DNA of 64,000 bases from Streptomyces venezuelae (GTDB lineage: Bacteria; Actinomycetota; Actinomycetes; Streptomycetales; Streptomycetaceae): the NCBI RefSeq assembly GCF_008642335.1, contig NZ_CP029191.1, forward strand, positions 3,162,001 through 3,226,000, in the 5' to 3' direction. The notes below the pieces were generated by a model, which was not told where the DNA came from, ran no database searches, and was given only the letters and a program-made list of their open reading frames with translations. The translations under genes and the position numbers were made by a program. Positions 39,834 through 58,497 of the stretch are shown here, one piece after another. Position 1 is the stretch's first letter; every line of letters starts with the position of its first letter.

Positions 39834-41009
39834 TTACGCCACCCGCGCGCCTCGGCGCCACACCTCGTCGACCAGCGGGACTCCCGGGCGGTACGCCAGG
39901 TGGACGTGGCTCGGGGCGTCGAGGAGGGCGAGGTCCGCTCGGGCTCCCACGGTGACGCGGCCCACGTCGGTCCTGCGCAGGGCCGCCGCGCCGCCCGCCG
40001 TCGCCGACCAGATCGCCTCGTCCGGGGTCATGCCCATGTCCCGCACGGCCAGGGCGATGCAGAACGGCACCGAGGACGTGAACGACGAGCCCGGGTTGCA
40101 GTCCGTGGACAGGGCCACCGTCGCGCCCGCGTCCAGGAGGCGGCGGGCGTCGGGCCACTCGGCCCGGGTCGAGAACTCCGCGCCGGGGAGGAGGGTCGCC
40201 ACCGTCGAGCTGTTCGCCAGGGCGTCGATGTCCTCGGATGTGAGGTGCGTGCAGTGGTCCGCCGATGCCGCGTCCAGTTCTACGGCCAGCTGCACTCCCG
40301 GGCCGTACGACAGCTGGTTCGCGTGGATGCGCGGGTGCAGGCCCTTCGCCATGCCCGCGGTCAGGATCGCGCGGGCCTGGTCGCCGTCGAACGCGCCCTT
40401 CTCGCAGAAGACGTCGATCCAGCGGGCGTGGGGGGCGCAGGCGTCCAGCATCTCGCCGGTGACGAGGTCCACGTACGCCGCCGGGTCCTCCGCGTAGTCC
40501 GGGGACACGATGTGCGCGCCGAGGAACGTGACCTCGTCGGTGTGGCGGGCGGCGATGCGGAGGGCGCGGGACTCGTCCTCGGTGTTCAGGCCGTAGCCCG
40601 ACTTCGTCTCGAACGTGGTCGTGCCCTGGCGGAGGGCCTCTTCGAGGTAGTGGGTGAGGTTCGCCTCCAGTGCGGCGTCGGTAGCCGCTCGCGTCGCCGC
40701 CACCGTCGTACGGATGCCTCCCGCCTCGTACGCGCGGCCCGACATGCGGGCGTTGAACTCCTGGGTGCGGTCGCCGGCGAAGACGAGGTGGGAGTGGGAG
40801 TCGACGAAGCCGGGGATGGCGGCGCGGCCTGCGGCGTCGTACGTCTCGTCTGCCGACGGGGCCTTTGCCGTCGGGCCCACCCAGGCGATGGTCTCGCCCT
40901 CCAGGACTACGGCCGCGTCCGTCATGAGGCCCAGCGGGCCGCCGTCGCCCTGCACGGGGTCGTTGGTGACGAGGGATGCGATGTTCGTGATGAGGGTGGT
41001 GCGGGGCAT
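39834..41009 (-). CDS. hutI: Imidazolonepropionase HutI
   Basis: 391 residues, amidohydrolase fold. Metal-binding HxH in [16 protein letters not shown], substrate-contact [16 protein letters not shown] and STDCNPGSS motifs, all typical of HutI. It hydrolyses 4-imidazolone-5-propanoate to N-formimidoyl-L-glutamate, step 3 of histidine degradation. It is the last gene of the minus-strand hut operon, 152 bases after hutF across a known dispersed repeat. Confidence 0.95.
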
Positions 41010-41161: not shown

Positions 41162-42532
41162 TCAATCTCTCAGCGCAGCGATCGCCTCCGTCAGGGCCCC
41201 CGGCACGTCCGGGATCAGGGCGTGTGCGCCGTCGCGTACGACGCGGGTGCCTCCCACCACCGTGTGCCGGACATCCGCCGACGTCGCCGCGAAGACCGCC
41301 GTCTCCGCCGCCAGGCGGGGGAGTGGGCCCGCCGTGCGGACCGAGTCCAGGGTGATGGTCGTGAGGTCCGCGAGCGCGCCCCGCTCCAGCGTGCCCGCGT
41401 CCGGCCAGCCCAGGGCCGCGTGGCCGTCCGCCGTGGCCGCGCGGAGCAGCGCCGCCGCCGTCCAGTGGCCGCGCGTATGGGAGCGGAGGCGTTCGTTCAG
41501 CTCCATGGCGCGGGCCTCCTCCAGGATGTCGATCACCGCGTGGCTGTCGCTGCCCAGGGAGAGGGGGCTGCCCGCCTGCTGGAGGCGGAGCGCCGGACCG
41601 ATGCCGTCCGCCAGGTCGCGTTCCGTCGTCGGGCACATGCAGGTGCCGGACGAGGAACCGCCCAGCAGGGCGATGTCCTCTTCCGTGAGGTGGGTGTTGT
41701 GGATGCCCGTCGTGCGGGGGCCCAGGACTCCGTGGTCCGACAGGAGCTGTGTCGGGGTGCGGCCGTGTGCCGCCATGCACGCCTCGTTCTCCGCCGTCTG
41801 CTCGGAGAGGTGGACGTGGAGGGGGGCCGTGCGGGCCGACGCCCACTCCGCCACCGTGGCGAGCTGCCGCGCCGGCACCGCCCGCACGGAGTGGATCGCC
41901 GCGCCGATCCGGGCGTGCGGGCGGTCCTTGAGGAGCGACGCCCGCTCCGCCCACGCGTCCGTCGTACCGTCGGAGAAGCGCAGCTGGTGGCGGTCCGGGG
42001 CCTTGCCGCGGTCCGCGTCGAGGAGGCCCGATGCCACGTACGCCGTGTCGAGAAGGGTGATGCGTACGCCTGCGTCCGCCGCCGCCTGGATCAGCGCCTC
42101 GCCCATCGCGTTCGGGTCGGCGTAGGGGGTGCCGCCGGGGGCGTGGTGCAGGTAGTGGAACTCGCCCACCGTCGTGATGCCCGCCAGCGCCATCTCCGCG
42201 TACACCGCCCGCGCCAGCGCGTGGTACGTCTCGGGGGTGAGGCGGTCGGCCACCGCGTACATGACCTCGCGCCACGTCCAGAACGTGCCGGAGCCGACCT
42301 GGACCGTGCCGCGCAGGGCGCGGTGGAACGCGTGCGAGTGGGCGTTCGCGAGGCCCGGGACCGTCAGGCCGCGCAGGACCGTCGCGCCGGGCGGGGGCAC
42401 GTCGATGTTCTTGCGGACCGCCGTGATGCGGTCGCCCGTCACGTCGACCGCGACGCCCGGCTCGACGTGCGGGTCGAGCCAGGCGTGCTCCAGCCAGTAG
42501 GTCTCCGTCGAGCGCTCCGTCGTCACCTGCAC
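41162..42532 (-). CDS. hutF: Formimidoylglutamate deiminase HutF
   Basis: 456 residues, amidohydrolase family. PGLANAHSHAFHRALRG holds the HxH metal site, with LHVHLSEQTAENEAC, GIHNTHL and LGSDSHAVID completing it. It deiminates N-formimidoyl-L-glutamate to N-formyl-L-glutamate. Its start overlaps the end of the M20 gene by 10 bases, and hutI lies downstream, so the route here goes through formylglutamate. Confidence 0.93.
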   Translation of the reverse strand: MQVTTERSTETYWLEHAWLDPHVEPGVAVDVTGDRITAVRKNIDVPPPGATVLRGLTVPGLANAHSHAFHRALRGTVQVGSGTFWTWREVMYAVADRLTPETYHALARAVYAEMALAGITTVGEFHYLHHAPGGTPYADPNAMGEALIQAAADAGVRITLLDTAYVASGLLDADRGKAPDRHQLRFSDGTTDAWAERASLLKDRPHARIGAAIHSVRAVPARQLATVAEWASARTAPLHVHLSEQTAENEACMAAHGRTPTQLLSDHGVLGPRTTGIHNTHLTEEDIALLGGSSSGTCMCPTTERDLADGIGPALRLQQAGSPLSLGSDSHAVIDILEEARAMELNERLRSHTRGHWTAAALLRAATADGHAALGWPDAGTLERGALADLTTITLDSVRTAGPLPRLAAETAVFAATSADVRHTVVGGTRVVRDGAHALIPDVPGALTEAIAALRD

Positions 42533-43752
42533 GCCAGCCCTTCCAGTACGTCGGCCAGTGCGGTCACCCCGGCCAGGCAGTCGTCCTCGGCGGCGAACTC
42601 GGCCGGGGAGTGCGAGACACCCGTGGGGTTCCGCACGAACAGCATGGCGGTGGGGATCGAGCCGGACAGAATACCGGCGTCGTGTCCCGCGCCCGTGCCG
42701 AGGACGGGGAGGGGACGCGGGTGCTCCGCGCGTGCGCCGAGGATCTTGGTCAGCTCGTCGCGGAGCGCGTCCTCGAACTCGACCACCGGTGTGAACGACT
42801 CACGGACGACGTCGAGGTCGATGCCGTGCCGCTCCGCGTACTCGCGGGCCGCCTTCTCGATGCCCGTCACCACCGTGTCCAGCGTCGACTGGTCGGCCGC
42901 GCGCGAGTCCAGCCAGCCGCGTACGAGCGACGGGATCGCGTTGACGCCGTTCGGCTCGACCGAGATCTTGCCGAAGGTGGCTACCGCCCCTGCGAGTTCC
43001 GCCTCACGGCGCGCCGCCAGGACCGTCTCCGCGTACGACAGCATCGGGTCCCTGCGGTCCACGAGGCGCGTGGTGCCCGCGTGGTTCGCCTCGCCCCGGA
43101 AGTCGAAGCGCCAGCGGCCGTGCGGCCAGATGGCGGACGCGATGCCCACCGGGTCACCGGAGAGGTCCAGGGCGCGGCCCTGTTCCACGTGCAGCTCCAC
43201 GAACGCGCCGATACGTGACAGGCGTTCGGGGTCCGGGCCGATGCCGTACGGGTCGTAACCCGCCGCCTCCATCGCCCGCGGCAGCGTCACGCCGTCGCCG
43301 TCCGTCAGCTTGTGCGCGGCCTCGACCGTCAGCTGTCCCGCGGTGAGGCGGGAGCCCACACAGGCCAGGCCGAAGCGGGCGCCCTCCTCGTCGCCGAAGT
43401 TGACGATCGCGAGGGGCTTGCTGAATTCGGCCTCGCGTGCCCGGAGTTCGTCGAGTGCCGCGAACGACGACACCACGCCCAGCGGGCCGTCGAACGCGCC
43501 GCCGTCCGGCACCGAGTCCAGGTGGGAGCCCGTGACGACCGCGTCACCGGCCGCGGGGTCGCCGAGCCACGCCCACTGGTTGCCGTTGCGGTCCAGTTCG
43601 TACGTCAGTCCGCGGGTATCCGCCTGTGCCTTGAACCAGGCGCGGCAGTCCGCGTCCGCGCGGGTCCAGGCGTACCGGCGGTAGCCGTGACTGCCCGCGT
43701 CGCGGCCGATGGGCAGCAGCTCCGCCCACATGCTGTGGAACGTGGAGGTCAC
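42523..43752 (-). CDS. M20-family amidohydrolase (allantoate amidohydrolase-like) in hut operon
   Basis: 409 residues, Zn-dependent M20 amidase of the hydantoinase/carbamoylase type: [33 protein letters not shown], and [13 protein letters not shown] in the dimer domain. It is usually named allantoate amidohydrolase, but it starts within the hutU stop (ATGA) and precedes hutF, so the natural substrate is more likely N-formylglutamate, filling the missing HutG step (inferred). All metal-site motifs are present. Confidence 0.88.
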
Positions 43753-45431
43753 GCGTCGCCGCCCTCGCGCATGGGAACCCGCACGCCCTTCTCGTCCGCC
43801 ACGCTCTCCGCGATGTCGTACCCCGCGTCCACGTGCCGGATCACGCCCATCCCCGGGTCGTTCGTGAGGACGCGGCGGATCTTCTCGCCCGCGAGCTTCG
43901 TGCCGTCGGCGACCGAGACCTGGCCCGCGTGGAGGGAGCGGCCCATGCCGACGCCGCCACCGTGGTGGATGGAGACCCAGGAGGCGCCGGACGCGACGTT
44001 CACCATCGCGTTCAGGAGCGGCCAGTCGGCGATCGCGTCGGAGCCGTCGAGCATGGCCTCCGTCTCGCGGTACGGGGACGCGACGGAACCGCAGTCCAGG
44101 TGGTCGCGGCCGATCGCGAGGGGCGCGGCGAGCGTGCCGTCGCCGACCATGTCGTTGAACATGTCGCCCGCCTTGTCGCGCTCGCCCTGGCCGAGCCAGC
44201 AGATGCGGGCGGGGAGACCCTGGAAGTGGACGCGTTCGCCCGCCATCTTGATCCAGCGGTGGAGGGATTCGTTCTCCGGGAAGAGGTCGAGGATCGCCTT
44301 GTCCGTCTTGTGGATGTCGGACGCCTCGCCGGAGAGCGCCGCCCAGCGGAACGGGCCCTTGCCCTCGCAGAAGAGGGGGCGGATGTAGGCGGGGACGAAG
44401 CCGGGGAACGCGAACGCGCGGTCGTAGCCCGCCAGTTGCGCCTCGCCGCGGATCGAGTTGCCGTAGTCGAAGACCTCGGCGCCCGCGTCCATGAATCCGA
44501 CCATCGCCTCGACGTGCTTCGCCATCGACTCGCGGGCGCGGGTGGTGAAGCCCGCGGGGTCCTTCGCCGCGTACGTCTGCATGTCGTCGAAGTCGACGCC
44601 CGTCGGCAGGTACGACAGCGGGTCGTGGGCCGAGGTCTGGTCCGTGACGATGTCGATGGGGGCGCCCTCGGCGAGCATGCGCGGGAGGAGGTCCGCCGCG
44701 TTGCCGAGGAGGCCGATGGAGAGCGGCTTGCGCCGGTCGCGGGCTTCCGTCGCGAGCTGGAGCGCGTGCTCCAGCGAGTCCGCCTTCACGTCCAGGTACT
44801 TGTGCTCGATGCGGCGCTCGATCGCGCGCGGGTCGCAGTCGATGCAGATCGCGACGCCGTCGTTCATCGTCACGGCGAGGGGCTGGGCGCCGCCCATGCC
44901 GCCGAGACCGGCGGTGAGGGTGATCGTGCCCGCGAGCGTGCCGTTGACCCCTTTACCCATTGAATGCAGCTTCGCGGCGACGGCGGCGAACGTCTCGTAC
45001 GTGCCCTGGAGGATGCCCTGCGTGCCGATGTAGATCCAGGAGCCCGCGGTCATCTGGCCGTACATGGTGAGGCCGAGCTGCTCCAGGCGGCGGAACTCCT
45101 CCCAGTTCGCCCAGTCGCCGACGAGGTTGGAGTTGGCGATGAGGACGCGCGGGGCCCACTCGTGGGTCTGCATGACGCCGACGGGGCGGCCGGACTGGAC
45201 GAGCATCGTCTCGTCCTGCTTCAGGGTCCGCAGCGTACGCACCATGGCGTCGAAGGAACGCCAGTCGCGGGCCGCCTTGCCGGTGCCGCCGTAGACGACG
45301 AGCTTGTCGGGGTGTTCGGCGACCTCGGGGTCGAGGTTGTTCTGCAGCATGCGGAGGGCGGCTTCCTGCTGCCATCCCAGGGCGCTCAGTTCCGTACCGC
45401 GCGGTGCCCGTACGGGGCGGGGTCCTGACAT
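43749..45431 (-). CDS. hutU: Urocanate hydratase HutU
   Basis: 560 residues, full length. [11 protein letters not shown] near the N-terminus, [20 protein letters not shown] (NAD-binding region) and a [20 protein letters not shown] segment identify it clearly. It hydrates urocanate to imidazolonepropionate with tightly bound NAD+. First gene of the hutU-M20-hutF-hutI operon; histidine ammonia-lyase proper is not in the operon. Regulation probably acts in the 138-base gap upstream, which holds a palindrome at 45474-45498. Confidence 0.96.
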
Positions 45432-45448: not shown

Positions 45449-45498
45449 GCTGTGACCTCTGCTGTGACCTTGTTATTCACATCCTGGGGGGATGAATA
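45449..45498. promoter_or_regulatory. Direct repeats and palindrome upstream of hutU
   Basis: GCTGTGACCT occurs twice with a 12-base period (45449-45458, 45461-45470), followed by a palindrome with arms TATTCACATCC (45474-45484) and GGATGAATA (45490-45498, one base shorter). The region is AT-rich for this genome and lies between hutU and the divergent decarboxylase gene. A repressor or activator site is likely, but no regulator gene is adjacent. Confidence 0.45.
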
Positions 45499-45569
45499 GA
45501 GCTAGTCAATAGCGAACGAATGCGCGAGTACGGCAGCGGGGTCCCGTCGCGGGTGATTGGCTGGATCAC

Positions 45570-50993: not shown

Positions 50994-51827
50994 CTACTCC
51001 ACGAAGAGTCCGCGGGCCACCGCCCGTACGTCGAACTCCTCCAGGCGGGCCTGCGCGTCGGGGAGGTTGTCGCACATGGCCTCCAGGAGGACACGGCCGA
51101 GCAGCATCGGGGCGCAGGCCGTGTCGAAGGCGAGGCCCGTGCCGACGGCGGCCGGGAGGAGCAGGTCGGAGTGGGCGGCGACCGGGGCGAAGGCCGAGTC
51201 GGCGACGGTGACGACGGTGAGGCCCGCCGACTGGGCGTAGGCGAGGGCGTCGACGACCTCGCGGGGGTGGCGGGGCAGCGCGAAGCAGAGGAGGGCCGAG
51301 GCACCGGCGCGGGCCGCGGCGTCGATGCGGTCCGCGAGCATCGTGCCGCCCTCGTCGAGGAGGCGCACCTCGGGGTGGACCTTCGCGGCGAAGTACGAGA
51401 AGCCGTACGCCTGGGACGCGGCGGCCCGCAGTCCGAGGACGGGCAGGGGCCGGGACGCGGCGAGGAGCCGTCCCGCGCGCTCGACCGGCTCGGGGTCGGC
51501 GAGGACCTCCGCCAGGTGCCTGAGGTTCTCGATCTCCGCGTCGACCGCCTGCTGGTACTCGTTGGCGGCCGTCGCCCCCGACTCCTCGGCGGGCGCCACG
51601 TCCCGCAGGTGTCTGCGCAGCGCCGGGTAGCCGTCGAAGCCGAGGGCGACGGCGAAGCGGGTGACCGACGGCTGGCTGACGCCGGCGAGTTCGGCCAGCT
51701 CCACGCTGGAGAGGAAGGGCGCGTCGGCGGCCCTGCGCACCATGCAGTGCGCGATGCGCCGCTGGGTGGGTGTGAGCCGATGGCCCTCGAAGAGCACTTG
51801 CAGTCGCGCGGCAGGGCTGTCACTCAT
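50994..51827 (-). CDS. RpiR-family transcriptional regulator
   Basis: 277 residues from ATG 51827, which overlaps the stop of the ammonia-lyase-like gene (ATGA). N-terminal HTH_6 (about 1-75: LTPTQRRIAHCMVRRAADAP, SSVELAELAGVSQPSVTRFAVALGFDGYPALRRHL) and a SIS sugar/phosphate-binding domain (about 110-250). Coupling to the lyase-like gene suggests it controls that operon and perhaps the divergent ABC transporter. The palindrome at 53450-53466 is its best candidate site. Confidence 0.9.
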   Translation of the reverse strand: MSDSPAARLQVLFEGHRLTPTQRRIAHCMVRRAADAPFLSSVELAELAGVSQPSVTRFAVALGFDGYPALRRHLRDVAPAEESGATAANEYQQAVDAEIENLRHLAEVLADPEPVERAGRLLAASRPLPVLGLRAAASQAYGFSYFAAKVHPEVRLLDEGGTMLADRIDAAARAGASALLCFALPRHPREVVDALAYAQSAGLTVVTVADSAFAPVAAHSDLLLPAAVGTGLAFDTACAPMLLGRVLLEAMCDNLPDAQARLEEFDVRAVARGLFVE

Positions 51828-53401
51828 GCCGTCCCCCTCATGATGTCCGTACCCGCTGTCGTTCCGGCGGTCGTTCCCGCGTTCGTCGCCGCGCCGAGTT
51901 CCGACCACACCGTGGTGAACCGGTCGAGCAGACCCGCCGCCGCCGTCACATCATCCGTCAGCGGCCGGTCCGCGAACTCCGCTTCCAGAACGGAGTCGGC
52001 GAGTTCGAAGGCGCGCGCGAGCGGTGTGTCCGGATCGAGCCGCATGTCCCGCTGCCGCAACGCCCGCACGGCGGCCACCAGTTCGCACCCCACGACCATC
52101 CGGAACGCCTCGCAGGCACGCAGGGTCTGGCGGGCGGCGAGCGAGGCGAAGCTCGCCTGTTCCTCCACGCCGCGCGAGAGCACGGCGTGGCCGAGGGAGG
52201 CGGGCGCGGAGAAGGCGCGCAGGTCACCGAGGGCGGCGCCGGCCGCGTATTCGAGGATCATGACGCCGGACGAGGCCGGTTCGCCGTCCGCGAGGAAGGG
52301 GCGCAGACGGGTGAAGGCCGGTTCGTTGAGCGTGGAGAGCCGGGAGGTGGAGAGGCGGGCCGCCTGGGTCACGGCGAGCCGGAAGTGGTCGAGTGCGAGG
52401 GCGAGTTGGGCCAGGTAGAAGCCGCCGTGGTGGTACGCGGCCAGGTCCTCGGGCGAGATCAGCGGGTTCTCCGCGGCCGCGTTGATCTCGACGGTCAGGA
52501 CATCCTCCAGGGCGTCCGCCGCGTCGTGCGCGGGGCCGTGGATCTGGGGCACGCACCGGAAGCCGTAGGGGTCCTGGATGCGGCCCAGGGGCGGAGTGGG
52601 GCGGTCGGGGGCGCCCAGCAAACGACGCATGCGCTCGGCGACCGCGTACGAGCCGGGGTGGCGCCGCGCCTCGTGCACGGGCAGCGCGTACGCCTCGTAC
52701 GAGCCGTCGACCGCCATCAGCGAGAGCGCCGCGACCACCTGCGTGGCGCCGATCAGGCCGCGCAGTTCGTGCAGGGCGAGCGCGGACTGGCCGAGGGTGA
52801 GGGCGTTGCTGCTGATGAGAGCGAGGGCGTCGTTGTTGTCGAGGGGCTGCGGCTGCGGGGGCCGCCCGGCGCCCCGCCACGGATGCTCACCGGCGAGCGC
52901 GAGGCCCATCTGGGAGAGGGCCGCGATGTCTCCGGTGCCGACCGAGCCGAACTCGTTGACGGTGGGGTACGCGCCGGTCTCCAGGGCCTCGCAGAGCGCC
53001 GTGACGACGCTGGGGCGCAGTCCGGCGCCGCCCGCGAGGAGCTGGTTGGCGCGGACGGCGAGCATCGCGCGGACCTGCCGCGCGGGGAGTTCGGCGCCGA
53101 TGGCGCCCGCGTGCGAGCGGAGCAGTCGCAGGCCGTGGTCGGCGGCGGCCTCCGTGGGCACGTCCTCGTTCCGGTTGGCGCCGACGCCGGTGGAGCGGCC
53201 GTAGACACGGCCCCACGCGGCGATCTCCCTGGCGGCGTTCCAGGACTCCTCGGCGCGCTTCATCCCGTCGGTCGCGGGAACGGGCCGGGCACCGGATTCG
53301 GCCAGGCGTACGACGTCTGCGACCATCATTCCCCGGCCGTCGAGGACGACGACCGCTTTTCTGTCGTTGGCCGCGGTGTCCGCGATACGAGACGACTTCA
53401 C
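51824..53401 (-). CDS. HAL/PAL-family ammonia-lyase homologue lacking the MIO triad
   Basis: 525 residues from GTG 53401 (GAGGAGGG upstream). Homologous along its length to histidine ammonia-lyase: Tyr67 in YGRSTGVGANR, SHAG (His97), QDPYGFRCVPQ and EEQASF. The prosthetic-group triad Ala-Ser-Gly, normally in GSVGASGD, is missing: the sequence here is GSVG-TGD (residues 152-158), one codon shorter with no Ala-Ser. The Asn site near LISSN also differs. An MIO-dependent lyase reaction is therefore unlikely. In an operon with an RpiR regulator and divergent from a quaternary-amine-type ABC transporter. Substrate unknown. Confidence 0.85.
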   Translation of the reverse strand: MKSSRIADTAANDRKAVVVLDGRGMMVADVVRLAESGARPVPATDGMKRAEESWNAAREIAAWGRVYGRSTGVGANRNEDVPTEAAADHGLRLLRSHAGAIGAELPARQVRAMLAVRANQLLAGGAGLRPSVVTALCEALETGAYPTVNEFGSVGTGDIAALSQMGLALAGEHPWRGAGRPPQPQPLDNNDALALISSNALTLGQSALALHELRGLIGATQVVAALSLMAVDGSYEAYALPVHEARRHPGSYAVAERMRRLLGAPDRPTPPLGRIQDPYGFRCVPQIHGPAHDAADALEDVLTVEINAAAENPLISPEDLAAYHHGGFYLAQLALALDHFRLAVTQAARLSTSRLSTLNEPAFTRLRPFLADGEPASSGVMILEYAAGAALGDLRAFSAPASLGHAVLSRGVEEQASFASLAARQTLRACEAFRMVVGCELVAAVRALRQRDMRLDPDTPLARAFELADSVLEAEFADRPLTDDVTAAAGLLDRFTTVWSELGAATNAGTTAGTTAGTDIMRGTA

Positions 53402-53466: not shown

Positions 53467-53485
53467 GCCGGAGCGCCGCGAACTA

Positions 53486-53515
53486 TTGACAACCTATTCA
53501 GACAACGAGAACTCT
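53486..53515 (+). promoter_or_regulatory. Candidate promoter of the ABC transporter
   Basis: A consensus TTGACA (53486-53491) lies 59 bases before the ATPase start in AT-rich sequence. No strong -10 stands out at the expected distance (GAACTC at 53509). Confidence 0.35.
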
Positions 53516-53549
53516 GCATGACGATATACAGCCGGGCAAGGGACTCCAC

Positions 53550-54776
53550 ATGATCCAATTCGATACGGTCCACAAGCGCTTCCCGAACGGCACGACAGCG
53601 GTCCACGACCTCACCCTCGACATGCCCGAAGGCGGCGTGACCGTCCTCGTCGGATCTTCCGGTTGCGGCAAGACGACGACCCTCCGCATGATCAACCGGA
53701 TGGTCGACCCGACCTCCGGGACCATCCGGGTCGGCGGCCGCGACATCCTGGAGCAGGACGCGGCGAAACTGCGCCGCTCCATCGGCTACGTCATCCAGCA
53801 GGCCGGCCTCTTTCCGCACCGCACGGTCCTCGACAACATCGCCACGGTGCCGCTGCTGCTCGGCTGGGGCCGCAGGAAGGCGCGGGCGCGGGCGGCGGAG
53901 CTCCTGGAGACGGTGGGGCTCGCGCCGGACGCGGGGCGTCGGTACCCGCACCAGCTCTCCGGCGGCCAGCAGCAGCGGGTGGGCGTGGCCCGTGCGCTCG
54001 CCGCGGACCCTCCCGTCCTCCTCATGGACGAGCCGTTCGGGGCGGTGGACCCCGTGGTCCGTACCCAACTCCAGGACGAACTGCTCCGCCTTCAGCGGGA
54101 CCTGAACAAGACGATCGTCTTCGTCACGCACGACATCGACGAGGCGGTGCGGCTCGGTGATCGCATAGCCGTGTTCCGCACGGGTGGGCATCTCGTGCAG
54201 TGCGCCGAGCCCGCGGAGCTTCTCGCCCGTCCCGCGGACGACTTCGTCGCGGACTTCCTGGGCGCGGAGCGTGGCCTCAAGCTCTTGTCCCTGTCCACGT
54301 TGTCGGGCGTCCCGCAGGGCCCCGCGCCGGAGGGCGGCGCGTGGACGCTCCGCTGGGACGCGACGGGGTCGCCTCTTTCCTGGCGCCACAAGGACGGAGA
54401 GTCCGCGGACGTCCCCGTACGTCCTCTCCGCGACACGGACTCGCTCCTCGCGGCGCTGGACGAGTCCTTGTCCGCCCCGACGGGGCTGGTGGCCCGCGTG
54501 GACGCGGAGGGGGTTCTGACGGGGGTCACGTCCCGCACCGACATCCACGAAGTCGCTGCCGCGGCGCACGAACGGGGCCGGCACGCTTCCATCCGCGGCC
54601 CGGTGGGGGCTGATCGCGCAGTTCCCCGCGCCCCTAAGTCGTCCACCCCAACGCCACCGAACGAGCCACCCCAGCCAGAGGCGCCGGGCGAGGTGGACGA
54701 GTCAGGGGCGCGGGGAACTGCGCGACAAGCCACAAGCGACCCGCAGCCGCAGGACCACGCGGAGCCCACCACATGA
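53550..54776 (+). CDS. ABC transporter ATPase, glycine betaine/quaternary amine type
   Basis: 408 residues. Walker [11 protein letters not shown]-loop [11 protein letters not shown], signature LSGGQQQR, Walker [13 protein letters not shown] and switch THD are intact; part of a regulatory CBS-like region follows ([20 protein letters not shown]). From about residue 350 the C-terminus is made of the dispersed palindromic repeat, in frame (DRAVPRAP ... GARGTARQA), ending HAEPTT. It belongs to the OpuA/OpuC-type uptake systems for betaine, choline or related compounds. First gene of a four-gene transporter operon. Confidence 0.9.
54600..54740. repeat. Dispersed palindromic repeat inside the ATPase coding sequence
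   Basis: Reverse arm at about 54614-54635 and forward arm at about 54702-54730 of the GGGGCGCGGGGAACTGCGCG family, separated by ~65 bases of Pro/Thr/Glu codons. Translated as the C-terminal tail of the ATPase. Confidence 0.85.
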
Positions 54777-55420
54777 CCGTCGACTGGTCGTGGATACGCG
54801 ATCACACCGACGACCTCACCACCCTCACCCTCTCCCACCTCCAGGCCGCCCTCACAGCCGTAGCCCTGGGGCTGCTCATCTCACTGCCCCTCGCCGTCGT
54901 CGCCCACCGCGTCCGCCCCCTCCGCGGACTCCTCCTCGGCCTCTCGAACGTCCTCTTCACCATCCCCTCCATCGCCGTCTTCGTCCTGCTCCTCCCCGTC
55001 AGCGGCCTCACCCGCACCACCACCGTCATCGGCCTGACGATCTACACCCTCGTCGTGCTCCTGAGGAACACCGTCGAGGGACTCGACTCCGTCCCGGCGA
55101 AGACGAAGGAAGCCGCCAAGGCCATGGGCACCCGCCCCCTCCGGACGCTCCTCACCGTCGAACTCCCCCTCGCCCTCCCCGTGATCATGGCCGGCGTACG
55201 GATCGCGACGGTCATGTCGATCTCGCTCGTCTCCGTGGCGACGTACATCGGCGACGGCGGCCTCGGGCAGCTCTTCACCGACGGGTTCCAGCGCAACTTC
55301 CCCACCCCCGTGATCGTCGGCGTGGTCCTCACCCTGCTCCTCGCGCTCGTCGCGGACGCCCTGCTCGTCACGCTCCAGTACGTCCTGACGCCCTGGACCC
55401 GCCGCCGGAGGAGCGCCTGA
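54773..55420 (+). CDS. ABC transporter permease, glycine betaine/quaternary amine type
   Basis: 215 residues, start overlaps the ATPase stop by 4 bases. Five to six membrane helices and the EAA loop (VPAKTKEAAKAMGTRPLRTL) that contacts the ATPase. OpuCB/OpuCD-like; moves the substrate handed over by the binding protein at 56107. Pairs with the second permease just downstream. Confidence 0.92.
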   Translation: MTVDWSWIRDHTDDLTTLTLSHLQAALTAVALGLLISLPLAVVAHRVRPLRGLLLGLSNVLFTIPSIAVFVLLLPVSGLTRTTTVIGLTIYTLVVLLRNTVEGLDSVPAKTKEAAKAMGTRPLRTLLTVELPLALPVIMAGVRIATVMSISLVSVATYIGDGGLGQLFTDGFQRNFPTPVIVGVVLTLLLALVADALLVTLQYVLTPWTRRRRSA

Positions 55421-55421
55421 C

Positions 55422-56093
55422 ATGTACGAACTCTTCAAGGACCTCGGCGCCTGGCTGGTCAGCGGCGACCAGTGGACCGGCCCCGACGGCATCGGGCACC
55501 GGCTCGTCGAGCACCTCCAGTACTCGCTGCTCGCCACCCTCGTCGCCGCCGCCATCGCCCTGCCGGTCGGCCTGCTCATCGGCCACACGGGACGCGGCGC
55601 GTTCATCGCCATCAACCTGTCCTCGTTCGGCCGCGCGCTGCCGACCGTCGGACTCGTCGTACTGGTCTTCCTGGCGAGCGGCCTCTCCATGTGGCCCGTC
55701 TACATCGCGCTGGTCGCGCTCGCCGTGCCCTCCATCGTCACCAACACGTACGCGGGCATGACCGCCGTCGACCCCGAGGTGCGGGACGCGGCGCGCGGCC
55801 AGGGCATGCGGGCCCACCAGGTGCTGTTCCAGGTCGAGTTGCCGCTCGCGCTGCCGCTGATCATGACGGGCCTGCGGCTCGCCCTCATCCAGGTCGTCGC
55901 GACGGCCACCATCGCCGCGTACGTCTCCTTCGGCGGCCTCGGCCGGTACGTGTTCGACGGACTCGCCCAGCGCGACCTCGTCCAGGTGCTCGGCGGTGCC
56001 GTACTCGTGGCCGCGGTCGCCGTCGTACTCGATCTCGCGCTCGCCGCCCTCCAGCGCGCCCTCTTCCGCCACCGTCCGTCCGCACAGGCTTAG
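55422..56093 (+). CDS. ABC transporter permease, glycine betaine/quaternary amine type
   Basis: 223 residues starting 1 base after the first permease stop. About six helices, EAA loop (DPEVRDAARGQGMRAHQVLF), and the AYVSFGGLGRYVFDGLAQRD region common to OpuC-type permeases. Likely forms a heterodimer with the preceding permease. Confidence 0.92.
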   Translation: MYELFKDLGAWLVSGDQWTGPDGIGHRLVEHLQYSLLATLVAAAIALPVGLLIGHTGRGAFIAINLSSFGRALPTVGLVVLVFLASGLSMWPVYIALVALAVPSIVTNTYAGMTAVDPEVRDAARGQGMRAHQVLFQVELPLALPLIMTGLRLALIQVVATATIAAYVSFGGLGRYVFDGLAQRDLVQVLGGAVLVAAVAVVLDLALAALQRALFRHRPSAQA

Positions 56094-56106: not shown

Positions 56107-57042
56107 ATGAACCGCAGAACTCTCCTCGGCGGGCTCCTCGCCACCGCCTCCGTCCCCGCGCTGGCCGCCTGCAGCGGTGGCATCACCTCCCTCGACGGCG
56201 GGGGCTCCGGCGGCGGCGGAGGCGGCTCCAGCAAGGACGGCGTCACCATCGGCACCGCCAACTTCACCGAGAACCAGGTGCTCGGGTACCTGTACGCGGC
56301 CGCCCTGGAGGCGGCGGGCGTGAAGACGAACGTCCGCCCCAACCTCGGCACCCGCGAGATCCTCATCCCCGCGCTCAAGGGCGGTGACATCGACCTGCTC
56401 CCCGAGTACCAGGGCGCCCTCCTGCACTACCTCGACCCCGAGGCGAAGGCCACGGAGGAGGGCGAGATGCAGAACGCGCTGGCCATGCGCCTGCCGCGCG
56501 GGCTCCAGATCCTCCCGTACGGGCGTGCCGAGGACTCCGACGCGTTCGTGGTGACGCGCGAGACCGCGAAGGAGTACGGCCTCACGTCCCTCGCCGACCT
56601 GGCGAAGCACAACGGAAAGCTGGTCATCGGCGCCTCCGCCGAGGTGAAGAAGCGCACGGTCGGCGTGGTCGGCCTGAAGGACGTGTACGGAGTCGAGTTC
56701 AAGGAGTTCAAGTCGCTCGACTCGTCCGGGCCGCTGGTCAAGGGCGCCCTGCGCAAGGGCGACGTCGACGTCGCGAACCTCTTCACCACCGACACCGACA
56801 TCGCCGCCGAGCACTGGGTCGTCCTCACCGACCCCAGGAACCTCGTCCCCGGCCAGCACGTCGTCCCGCTCATCGCCGACCGCAAGGCCGACTCGACGGT
56901 CCGCAAGGCCCTCGCCCGCCTCGGCGCCCTCCTGACGACGGCGCAGCTCACCGAGTTGAACCGCCTGGTGGACAAGGACAAGAAGGACCCGGAGGACGTC
57001 GCACAGGACTGGGCGGACCGGCACGGCATCACGAAGAAGTAG
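56107..57042 (+). CDS. ABC transporter substrate-binding lipoprotein (quaternary amine type)
   Basis: 311 residues from ATG 56107. Lipoprotein signal peptide with lipobox LAAC (Cys22), a Gly/Ser linker (31-40), then a type II binding fold: VTIGTANFTENQVLGYLYAA, LLPEYQGALLHYL, DVDVANLFTTDTDI. This matches the OpuAC-like family for betaines, choline, carnitine or ergothioneine-type ligands. It should sit on the outer face of the membrane and feed the two permeases. The exact ligand cannot be read off without structure-level comparison. Confidence 0.92.
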   Translation: MNRRTLLGGLLATASVPALAACSGGITSLDGGGSGGGGGGSSKDGVTIGTANFTENQVLGYLYAAALEAAGVKTNVRPNLGTREILIPALKGGDIDLLPEYQGALLHYLDPEAKATEEGEMQNALAMRLPRGLQILPYGRAEDSDAFVVTRETAKEYGLTSLADLAKHNGKLVIGASAEVKKRTVGVVGLKDVYGVEFKEFKSLDSSGPLVKGALRKGDVDVANLFTTDTDIAAEHWVVLTDPRNLVPGQHVVPLIADRKADSTVRKALARLGALLTTAQLTELNRLVDKDKKDPEDVAQDWADRHGITKK

Positions 57043-57069
57043 CCGTACGAACTTGGGGAGTTGACCGGC

Positions 57070-58497
57070 ATGGCAGCTGAAGATCTGGTGGAGCGGCGCT
57101 CCATCGACGTCGTCCCTGACGACGAACGGCACGGCACCGCGTTCAGCCAGTTCACGCTCTGGCTCGGCGCGAATCTGCAGATCACCGCGGTCGTGACGGG
57201 CGCGCTCGCCGTCGTGTTCGGCGGCGACGTGGTGTGGTCGCTCGTCGGCCTCGTCCTCGGCAACCTGCTCGGCGGCGCGGTCATGGCGCTGCACTCGGCG
57301 CAGGGCCCGAAGCTGGGGCTGCCGCAGATGATCCAGTCGCGGGCCCAGTTCGGGGTGAAGGGCGCGGTCGTCCCGCTGCTCCTCGTCATCCTCATGTACG
57401 TCGGTTTCTTCGCGAGCGGCAGCGTCCTCGCGGGCCAGGCGACAGCCGAACTGACGCACACGAACGACACCACGGGCATCGTCGTCTTCGCCGCCGTCAC
57501 GGCGGTCATGGCGGCGGTCGGCTACCGCGTCATCCACGCGCTCGGCCGGGTGGCGAGCGTGATCTGCGCGCTCGCCTTCGTCTACCTCGGCATCCGGCTC
57601 GTCGACCGCGTGGACATCGGCGCACTGTTCTCGGACGCCCACTTCGACCTGCCGATGTTCCTGCTCGCCGTGTCGCTGTCGGCGTCCTGGCAGCTGGCGT
57701 TCGGCCCGTACGTCGCGGACTACTCGCGCTACCTGCCGCGCACCACCTCCGCCAAGGCCACGTTCTGGTGGACCCTGTCGGGGTCGGCGCTCGGCTCGCA
57801 GTGGTCGATGACGTTCGGCGTGCTCGTCGCGGCGAGCGCGGGCGACGCGTTCCTCGCCAACCAGGTCGGCTACGTCGTCGGCCTCGGCGGCACGGGCCTG
57901 ATCGCCTCCTTCCTCTACTTCGTGATCGCGCTCGGCAAGCTGACCATCAACGTCCTGAACACCTACGGCGGCTTCATGTCGATGGTCACGAGCATCAGCG
58001 GCTTCCGCGGCCAGAAGGTGCTCGGGGCGCGCGGGCGGGCCGCGTACATCGCGGTGATCATGGTGGCGGGCACGGCGGTCGCGCTGCTGGGCAAGGACAG
58101 CTTCCTGTCCTCCTTCAAGGACTTCCTGCTGTTCCTGCTGACGTTCTTCACGCCGTGGTCGGCCATCAACCTGGTCGACTACTACCTGATCTCCCGCGAG
58201 CGGTACGACATCCCCGCCCTCGTCGACCCGCACGGCCGCTACGGCGCCTGGCGCTGGGACGCCCTGACCGTCTACGGCACAGGCCTGCTCGCCCAGCTCC
58301 CCTTCCTGGTCACCCACTTCTACACGGGCCCCCTCGTCGACCCGCTCGGCGGCGCCGACATCTCGTGGATCGTGGGGCTCGTGGTGCCCGCGGTGCTGTA
58401 CTGGGCACTCGCCAGGCGGAACCCGCCCGTCCCTGGGGCTGGGCCCCGTGCGGAAAGGGGGGTTAGCCCCAGCGCCGAGAGCGCGCCGGCGCCGTAA
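57070..58497 (+). CDS. NCS1-family permease (cytosine/purine/hydantoin type)
   Basis: 475 residues from ATG 57070 (GGGGAG upstream; TTG 57061 also possible). About 12 helices; FSQFTLWLGANLQITAVVTG on helix 1, FGPYVADYSRYLPRTTSAKA and INLVDYYLISRERYDIP are NCS1 landmarks. It should import a nucleobase, hydantoin, allantoin or similar ring compound with Na+ or H+. The last ~20 residues (VPGAGPRAERGVSPSAESAP) seem derived from repeat DNA. It follows the ABC operon by 27 bases and may share its transcript. Confidence 0.9.
   Translation: MAAEDLVERRSIDVVPDDERHGTAFSQFTLWLGANLQITAVVTGALAVVFGGDVVWSLVGLVLGNLLGGAVMALHSAQGPKLGLPQMIQSRAQFGVKGAVVPLLLVILMYVGFFASGSVLAGQATAELTHTNDTTGIVVFAAVTAVMAAVGYRVIHALGRVASVICALAFVYLGIRLVDRVDIGALFSDAHFDLPMFLLAVSLSASWQLAFGPYVADYSRYLPRTTSAKATFWWTLSGSALGSQWSMTFGVLVAASAGDAFLANQVGYVVGLGGTGLIASFLYFVIALGKLTINVLNTYGGFMSMVTSISGFRGQKVLGARGRAAYIAVIMVAGTAVALLGKDSFLSSFKDFLLFLLTFFTPWSAINLVDYYLISRERYDIPALVDPHGRYGAWRWDALTVYGTGLLAQLPFLVTHFYTGPLVDPLGGADISWIVGLVVPAVLYWALARRNPPVPGAGPRAERGVSPSAESAPAP

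Follow-up and report, generated by a model that had tools for sequence, protein, structure and literature searches.

The window analyzed here, a 64,000-nucleotide stretch of the Streptomyces venezuelae genome (assembly GCF_008642335.1, contig NZ_CP029191.1, positions 3,162,001 to 3,226,000 of the forward strand), carries a gene for a histidine ammonia-lyase (HAL) family protein that lacks the residue triad from which the cofactor 4-methylideneimidazole-5-one (MIO) is made. On balance, we favor the reading that this protein, here called the TGD lyase, is an MIO-free lyase of the hut regulon that forms urocanate, most likely from hercynine (N-alpha-trimethylhistidine, or histidine betaine), with release of trimethylamine. 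The gene and its altered loop lie as follows:

51824..53401, minus strand: MIO-less HAL-family lyase (TGD lyase), 525 amino acids, GTG start; from the open reading frame (ORF), Pfam and alignment
52928..52948, minus strand: GSVGTGD codons, residues 152-158, in place of the HAL sequence GSVGASGD; from alignment to Pseudomonas putida HAL

As the first-pass annotation of the window stated, the protein belongs to the HAL family but lacks the MIO triad. It matches PF00221 (aromatic amino acid lyase) with 373.4 bits against a gathering cut-off of 27.3, and its loop reads GSVG-TGD where P. putida HAL has GSVGASGD, one residue short and with neither the Ala-Ser-Gly (ASG) nor the Cys-Ser-Gly (CSG) of HutH proteins. 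Against the NCBIfam hutH equivalog TIGR01225 it scores 285.5 bits, under the cut-off of 539.15. The reading frame is intact, with AGGAGG directly upstream of its GTG, and an AlphaFold2 model of the protein has a pLDDT of 87.8 and a pTM of 0.88. We read the loop in 119 HAL-family ORFs of at least 300 codons from the loci examined, a set in which a few genes are included twice. The form G-[TI]-[GA]-D was found in 106; the 11 with ASG or CSG are all HutH or TAL-like (tyrosine ammonia-lyase-like) paralogues; in one (L012), the loop is not readable in the extracted frame; and one, a second HAL gene in the Sciscionella locus L090, has another MIO-less motif, GSVGYLGPEAH. This last gene (frame from 11157, plus strand) directly follows a TGD lyase. 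Because 106 of the 119 ORFs carry it, the TGD loop is a clade-wide trait and not a sequencing error. The annotation had itself named an error at 52930-52950, or orthologues with ASG, as what would undo its claim; the first is excluded by a loop common to the relatives, and the only ASG or CSG sequences are paralogues. The idea that the gene is a misread or decayed ordinary HutH can be dismissed, since the loop recurs in those 106 ORFs (a few of them included twice), the frame is open, the lyases form a clade of their own, and the genome’s ordinary MIO HutH is located elsewhere, 1.9 Mb from the lyase.

A tree of 55 rows groups the 27 window-type lyases in one clade (support 100/99) and 14 ergothionase-like proteins in another (100/100), leaving the window lyase outside the ergothionase clade. 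The MIO-bearing HutH and TAL-like rows, together with the MIO-less second gene of L090, are split from both with support of 92/95 in this tree, where L013 sits on a long branch. Should the tree be rooted among the MIO enzymes, both clades could be traced to one common loss of MIO. We found no characterized member of the window-type clade, and its genes are labeled histidine or aromatic ammonia-lyases in databases. Lyase matches at E ≤ 1e-60 occur in 13 of 396 phylum-wide genomes and 6 of 236 genera (source genome counted), and the lyase is present in 27 of the 61 Streptomyces genomes sampled. The window-type lyases are a distinct clade, which we assign to the hut regulon, with a testable substrate prediction.

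Loss of MIO with the rest of the enzyme intact, from which the first-pass annotation argued for a new reaction or a binding role, is not new in itself. PMC13405746 names ergothionase as a characterized MIO-less member, and the Treponema denticola enzyme has been solved (6s7j and 6s7q), which makes the finding less surprising than the annotation supposed. Like the lyase, ergothionase has the HAL fold, no MIO, and the identical one-residue deletion, although its loop reads SSIG-EGD, its identity to the lyase is 27%, and it falls in the separate clade. By sequence, the closest solved relatives of the lyase are HALs (7tqr and 6v6h), with Treponema ergothionase third; by structure, the top Foldseek match in the PDB is ergothionase 6s7j (TM scores of 0.86/0.90), and VIA-align ties ergothionase with tyrosine aminomutase and HAL as the best fold match.

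The active site was compared in an alignment of the 27 window-type lyases with 14 ergothionase-clade, 8 HutH, and 5 TAL-like rows (P. putida HAL numbering). Of the seven positions that we take to make up the HAL active site, Y53, H83, R283, F329, and E414 are invariant in 27/27 lyases, Q277 is kept in 26/27, and Y280 is kept in only 10/27 (and in 0/14 ergothionases), bearing out the annotation’s statement that several active-site residues persist. These five positions are among the 48 columns, out of 481, that do not vary (p = 1.5e-4). The annotation had offered a new reaction or a binding role as the meaning of the MIO loss; a changed reaction fits, and a role in binding alone is unlikely given the invariance of the catalytic positions. 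At three positions, the lyases go with the ergothionases: Val at 59 in 27/27 and 14/14 (Phe in 8/8 HutH), Ser at 195 in 27/27 and 14/14 (Asn in 8/8 HutH and 5/5 TAL-like rows), and Ala at 198 in 27/27 and 14/14 (also in 1/5 TAL-like rows). Elsewhere they go with HutH. Position 382 is Met in 25/27 lyases as in HutH, Gly in 12/14 ergothionases, and Lys in 4/5 TAL-like rows; position 386 is Tyr in 26/27 lyases (Tyr or Trp in 27/27) as in HutH and Lys in 14/14 ergothionases. At the latter site, the window lyase has Tyr385 in place of ergothionase Lys384, a residue presumably catalytic in that enzyme. E414 is kept in lyases (27/27), ergothionases, and HutH, and it is Gln in 5/5 TAL-like rows. Position 385 is Glu in 27/27 lyases (Glu384 of the window protein) and Gln in 14/14 ergothionases, 8/8 HutH, and 5/5 TAL-like rows.

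Treponema ergothionase shares V59, S195, A198, R283, F329, and E414 with the lyase but differs in Lys rather than Tyr at 386, mostly Gly rather than Met at 382, Gln rather than Glu at 385, and Glu at 143, where the lyases have Thr or Ile. HutH (TIGR01225) shares Y53, H83, R283, F329, M382, and E414 as well as the hut genes; against it, the lyase has no MIO triad, Ser for N195, Glu for Q385, Y280 not kept, and a score under the cut-off, and its genome has an MIO HutH besides. With the roles that we assume for these residues, the predicted amine/MIO side of the lyase site agrees with ergothionase and the ring side with HutH. A HAL-type ring side combined with an ergothionase-type leaving-group side points to hercynine as the substrate.

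In the reaction that we propose, Tyr67 would take the beta-proton of hercynine, acidified by the protonated imidazole, while Arg282 would grip the carboxylate and His97, Met381, and Glu413 would grip the ring (residues of the window protein). Neutral trimethylamine could then depart without MIO activation, and urocanate would pass into HutU-HutI-HutF. Ergothionase feeds thiourocanate pathways, but no protein exceeds the cut-off of the thiourocanate hydratase model in any of the 61 Streptomyces genomes (60/61 match it well below cut-off, at the level of the window HutU, which scores 633.7 bits against a cut-off of 930), and no PF04463 desulfurase was found in the source genome; urocanate is, therefore, the product that the cell is equipped to use. 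The source genome also has EgtD, whose reaction we take to be hercynine formation, so the cell could make hercynine itself.

The lyase adjoins a regulator gene and lies 6.4 kb from a hut operon on the same strand, which is absent from the first-pass annotation:

50994..51827, minus strand: RpiR-family regulator; its ATG overlaps the lyase stop codon (ATGA)
43749..45431, minus strand: hutU, urocanase (true HutU; NCBIfam 887.4 bits, cut-off 375)
42523..43752, minus strand: allantoate amidohydrolase-type hydrolase of the hut operon
41162..42532, minus strand: hutF, formimidoylglutamate deiminase
39834..41009, minus strand: hutI, imidazolonepropionase

The annotation had placed the lyase with an RpiR regulator, and the ATGA overlap suggests that the two genes are probably translationally coupled. 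(The listed rpiR ORF starts at GTG 51908; orthologues align from residues 3-32 on, many of them from 21-29.) RpiR orthologues of at least 70% identity occur in 58 of the 61 Streptomyces genomes, each with a HutU match, and lie within 20 kb of hutU in 51 of the 58 genomes having both, including 31/31 lyase-free ones. By these counts, RpiR is a steady neighbor of the hut locus, and the lyase is an optional gene in front of it. Three observations place the lyase in the hut regulon: rpiR lies within 1.5 kb of it in 20 of the 27 lyase-bearing Streptomyces genomes, hutU lies within 25 kb in 16/27, and in locus L200 the lyase sits inside a hut operon. The overlapping rpiR gene would encode the regulator of the lyase.

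Locus L200 (genome G041, from another class of the phylum) takes in L011 with its surroundings, and its lyase and rpiR are 41% and 54% identical to those of the window. On one strand, it carries rpiR, a sodium:solute symporter, an MIO hutH, an ATP-binding cassette (ABC) ATPase, two permeases, a binding protein, and the lyase, followed by an M20 peptidase-type gene, hutU, hutF, and hutI, forming a complete hut operon. In L201 (G118, from another family of the phylum), 4.5 kb separate the lyase from consecutive hutU, allC, and hutF genes. We also examined at most 10 kb on each side in 80 named loci taken from 520 confirmed ones; HutU is present in 42, three of them clearly outside Streptomyces. 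The Actinomadura barringtoniae locus has hutF, allC, hutU, an MIO hutH, ABC genes, and the lyase; that of Sphaerisporangium perillae has hutI, hutF, allC, hutU, rpiR, and the lyase; and that of a Thermoleophilaceae metagenome-assembled genome has hutU (truncated by the contig end), an MIO hutH, and the lyase. No hut genes were found within 10 kb of the lyase in Lentzea, Prauserella, Kutzneria, and others or in the stretches taken around it in L202, L203, and L204. By NCBIfam, HutU is a true urocanase in L049, L099, L200, and L201, and an MIO HutH stands beside the lyase in L200, L049, and L078. A LacI-family gene replaces rpiR beside the lyase in Actinomadura (L049:11605-12600) and Actinoallomurus (L102:11410-12450), the family having been checked in L049 only.

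A third MIO-less HAL type in Streptomyces carries the loop GSIGASD (L133:4520-6346 and L127:7350-8837). It resembles the lyase in lacking MIO and in adjoining a related ABC transporter, and at L133 it is accompanied by an RpiR 76-79% identical to that of the window; it differs in having Arg for His83, Lys at 386, Ala at 385, and a flanking OCD/mu-crystallin gene. The L133 cluster includes a gene that is amidohydrolase-like by appearance, with no Pfam match, and a type 2A encapsulin (SrpI-like, with a cNMP domain) and a class-V aminotransferase lie near the L127 cluster (L127:1355-4364).

Divergent from the lyase is a set of transporter genes, and the ABC system, the NCS1 carrier, or both would import a substrate:

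53550..54776, plus strand: ABC transporter ATPase (ProV-like)
54773..55420, plus strand: ABC permease 1
55422..56093, plus strand: ABC permease 2
56107..57042, plus strand: OpuAC-type solute-binding protein without an aromatic cage
57061..58497, plus strand: NCS1-family heterocycle transporter

Close copies of the binding protein (at least 68% identity) occur in 18 of the 61 Streptomyces genomes, every one beside a lyase, which ties the ABC system to the lyase. The NCS1 gene stands beside the lyase in several Streptomyces loci where ABC genes were not found; overall, the type of transporter next to the lyase differs between loci (ABC, NCS1, or, in L087, L090, and L101, an MFS carrier). A second Streptomyces binding-protein/ABC set, ∼40-45% identical to that of the window, occurs in L128, L129, L131, L132, and L135-L142, often beside conservon-like genes (sensor kinase, roadblock, DUF742, and GTPase, judged by gene sizes and sequence); some of these loci carry a second TGD-lyase paralogue.

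The quaternary-amine transporter of the first-pass annotation stands at the family level, as the binding protein belongs to the osmoprotectant (OpuAC) family and has EgtU-type proteins among its best solved matches, but its pocket has no aromatic cage. With cage features of EgtU and glycine-betaine proteins taken from PMC9732360, the window protein shares solute-binding protein family F-III, E375, and R379 with the EgtU binding domain (EgtUC) and differs at all of K242, I243, G244, T275, F293, T296, Y337, N339, Y341, Y419, and Y443. In place of EgtU’s G244, F293/Y337 switch, and cage, 15/15 aligned proteins have F244, Y293, A337, D341, and Q443. The sole binding protein that keeps a cage is that of L011/L200, where it is complete, as in glycine-betaine proteins (Y293, F337, N339, Y341, and Y443, with F244; EgtU numbering); its best solved matches are acetylcholine- and nicotine-sensor binding proteins, and in the L200 lineage the cargo is likely, from these residues, to be a quaternary or similar cation. 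The annotation’s betaine-like or histidine-derived ligand thus draws support from the hut setting, the HAL-type ring residues, the ergothionase-type MIO loss, and the L200 cage, but its argument from the window’s own transporter is weak, the binding protein there having no cage.

Two kinds of promoter element are shared between these genes:

53514..53531, minus strand: palindrome CTGTAT-N6-ATGCAG, candidate RpiR operator
53483..53500, plus strand: CTATTGAC-N3-CTATTCA element in the lyase/transporter intergenic region
45493..45512, minus strand: CTATTGAC-N5-CTATTCA element upstream of hutU

The palindrome CTGYATA-N4-YATGCAG, present without mismatch between lyase and transporter in the window, was found before rpiR in 20/20 lyase-free genomes examined of the 31 (at most 2 mismatches; shuffled 1/1000). 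Allowing 4 mismatches, it occurs before the lyase in 64/64 close orthologues (shuffled 18/64) and in 45 of 62 hutU upstream regions (shuffled 13). The 8.05-Mb genome has just two copies of the CTATTGAC-N-CTATTCA element, one upstream of hutU and the other between the lyase and the transporter genes (control 0). A looser form is found before hutU in 45/50 loci and 20/20 lyase-free genomes; of 118 lyase genes, 60 are preceded by it, and those without it include every lineage outside Streptomyces. Upstream of hutU there is also an inverted repeat, TATTCA-N13-TGAATA (window 45474-45498), a candidate operator of another hut regulator, with a slightly looser match in 15/20 lyase-free genomes. The hutH start codon of the source genome lies inside a palindrome-like sequence, CTGAATATGGATATGCAC (5083823-5083840; L196), a possible RpiR site that is identical in 4/4 Streptomyces hutH loci examined.

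Several observations weigh against hercynine as substrate or against the hut assignment. Chief among them is the binding pocket, which seems ill suited to a quaternary amine: in EgtU numbering, the window protein and 14 other lyase-linked binding proteins have Asp for Y341, Gln for Y443, Ala for Y337, and Arg for T275, and the Asp recurs in 56 of 57 binding proteins of the loci examined, lyase-free genomes included. Asp in place of the cage Tyr341 would favor a ligand with N-H amines. As for the hut linkage, 11 of the 27 Streptomyces lyase genes do not lie within 25 kb of hutU (3 are on the hutU contig more than 2 Mb away, and 8 are on other contigs, some of them draft), and 38 of the 80 named loci show no HutU in the at most 10 kb on each side. 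The palindrome occurs before 31 distant lyases (less than 75% identity) as often as in shuffles (7/31 vs. 7/31), genome-wide it has no more matches at up to 2 mismatches than the control (39 vs. 141), and the window hutU has no good copy (5 mismatches). Moreover, the promoter elements were chosen after being seen, and the two CTATTGAC-N-CTATTCA spacers differ (5 vs. 3).

One alternative is another histidine-derived substrate, such as histidine, D-histidine, or a partly N-methylated histidine, from which an ordinary amine would be eliminated without MIO, ring protonation acidifying the beta-proton, perhaps with the help of the unique Glu384. We regard this as possible though rather unlikely. 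The Asp, Gln, and Arg that most lyase-linked binding proteins have instead of an aromatic cage speak for it, as do the hut setting and the Glu384 that is invariant in the lyases and Gln in ergothionases, HutH, and TAL-like proteins. HutXWV, of the quaternary amine transporter (QAT) family, is a histidine carrier in Sinorhizobium, a name absent from the papers that one search listed. However, without MIO, loss of ammonia from histidine is much slower, the source genome has an MIO HutH of its own, as do L200, L049, and L078 next to the lyase, the amine-side changes are common to lyase and ergothionase, and the L200 binding protein is caged. The cageless window binding protein and the unique Glu do allow the strict form of this proposal, in which an N-H amine leaves histidine or a partly methylated histidine through ring protonation and Glu384, with neither MIO nor a quaternary leaving group, but we hold that form to be quite improbable; if true, the hut regulon would contain a second way, free of the cofactor, to carry out the histidine ammonia-lyase reaction.

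It is also improbable that the lyase is itself an ergothionase, converting ergothioneine to thiourocanate and trimethylamine. The MIO deletion, fold, and amine-side residues are in common, the lyase is 27% identical to P0121 (which is 99% identical to the Treponema enzyme), and the genome has EgtD. Yet the Lys found in 14/14 ergothionase-clade proteins is Tyr or Trp in 27/27 lyases, the two groups form separate clades (100/99 for the lyases), thiourocanate hydratase does not exceed its cut-off in the 61 genomes, the urocanases of L049, L099, L200, and L201 are true HutU, and the binding proteins are without EgtU’s G244 and F293/Y337. A noncatalytic sensor or ligand-binding partner of RpiR, which the overlap of the two genes might suggest, is very unlikely: five of the seven HAL active-site positions are invariant across lineages down to ∼41% identity, and RpiR is retained without the lyase in 31 genomes.

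If elimination of trimethylamine from hercynine is indeed its reaction, the TGD lyase would join ergothionase as a second type of MIO-free lyase, and it would give soil actinobacteria a route to use hercynine, a fungal product and an intermediate in the synthesis of ergothioneine, via the hut pathway. The clade provides naturally occurring proteins with which to test why MIO is required, and RpiR is a candidate regulator of histidine use in Streptomyces.

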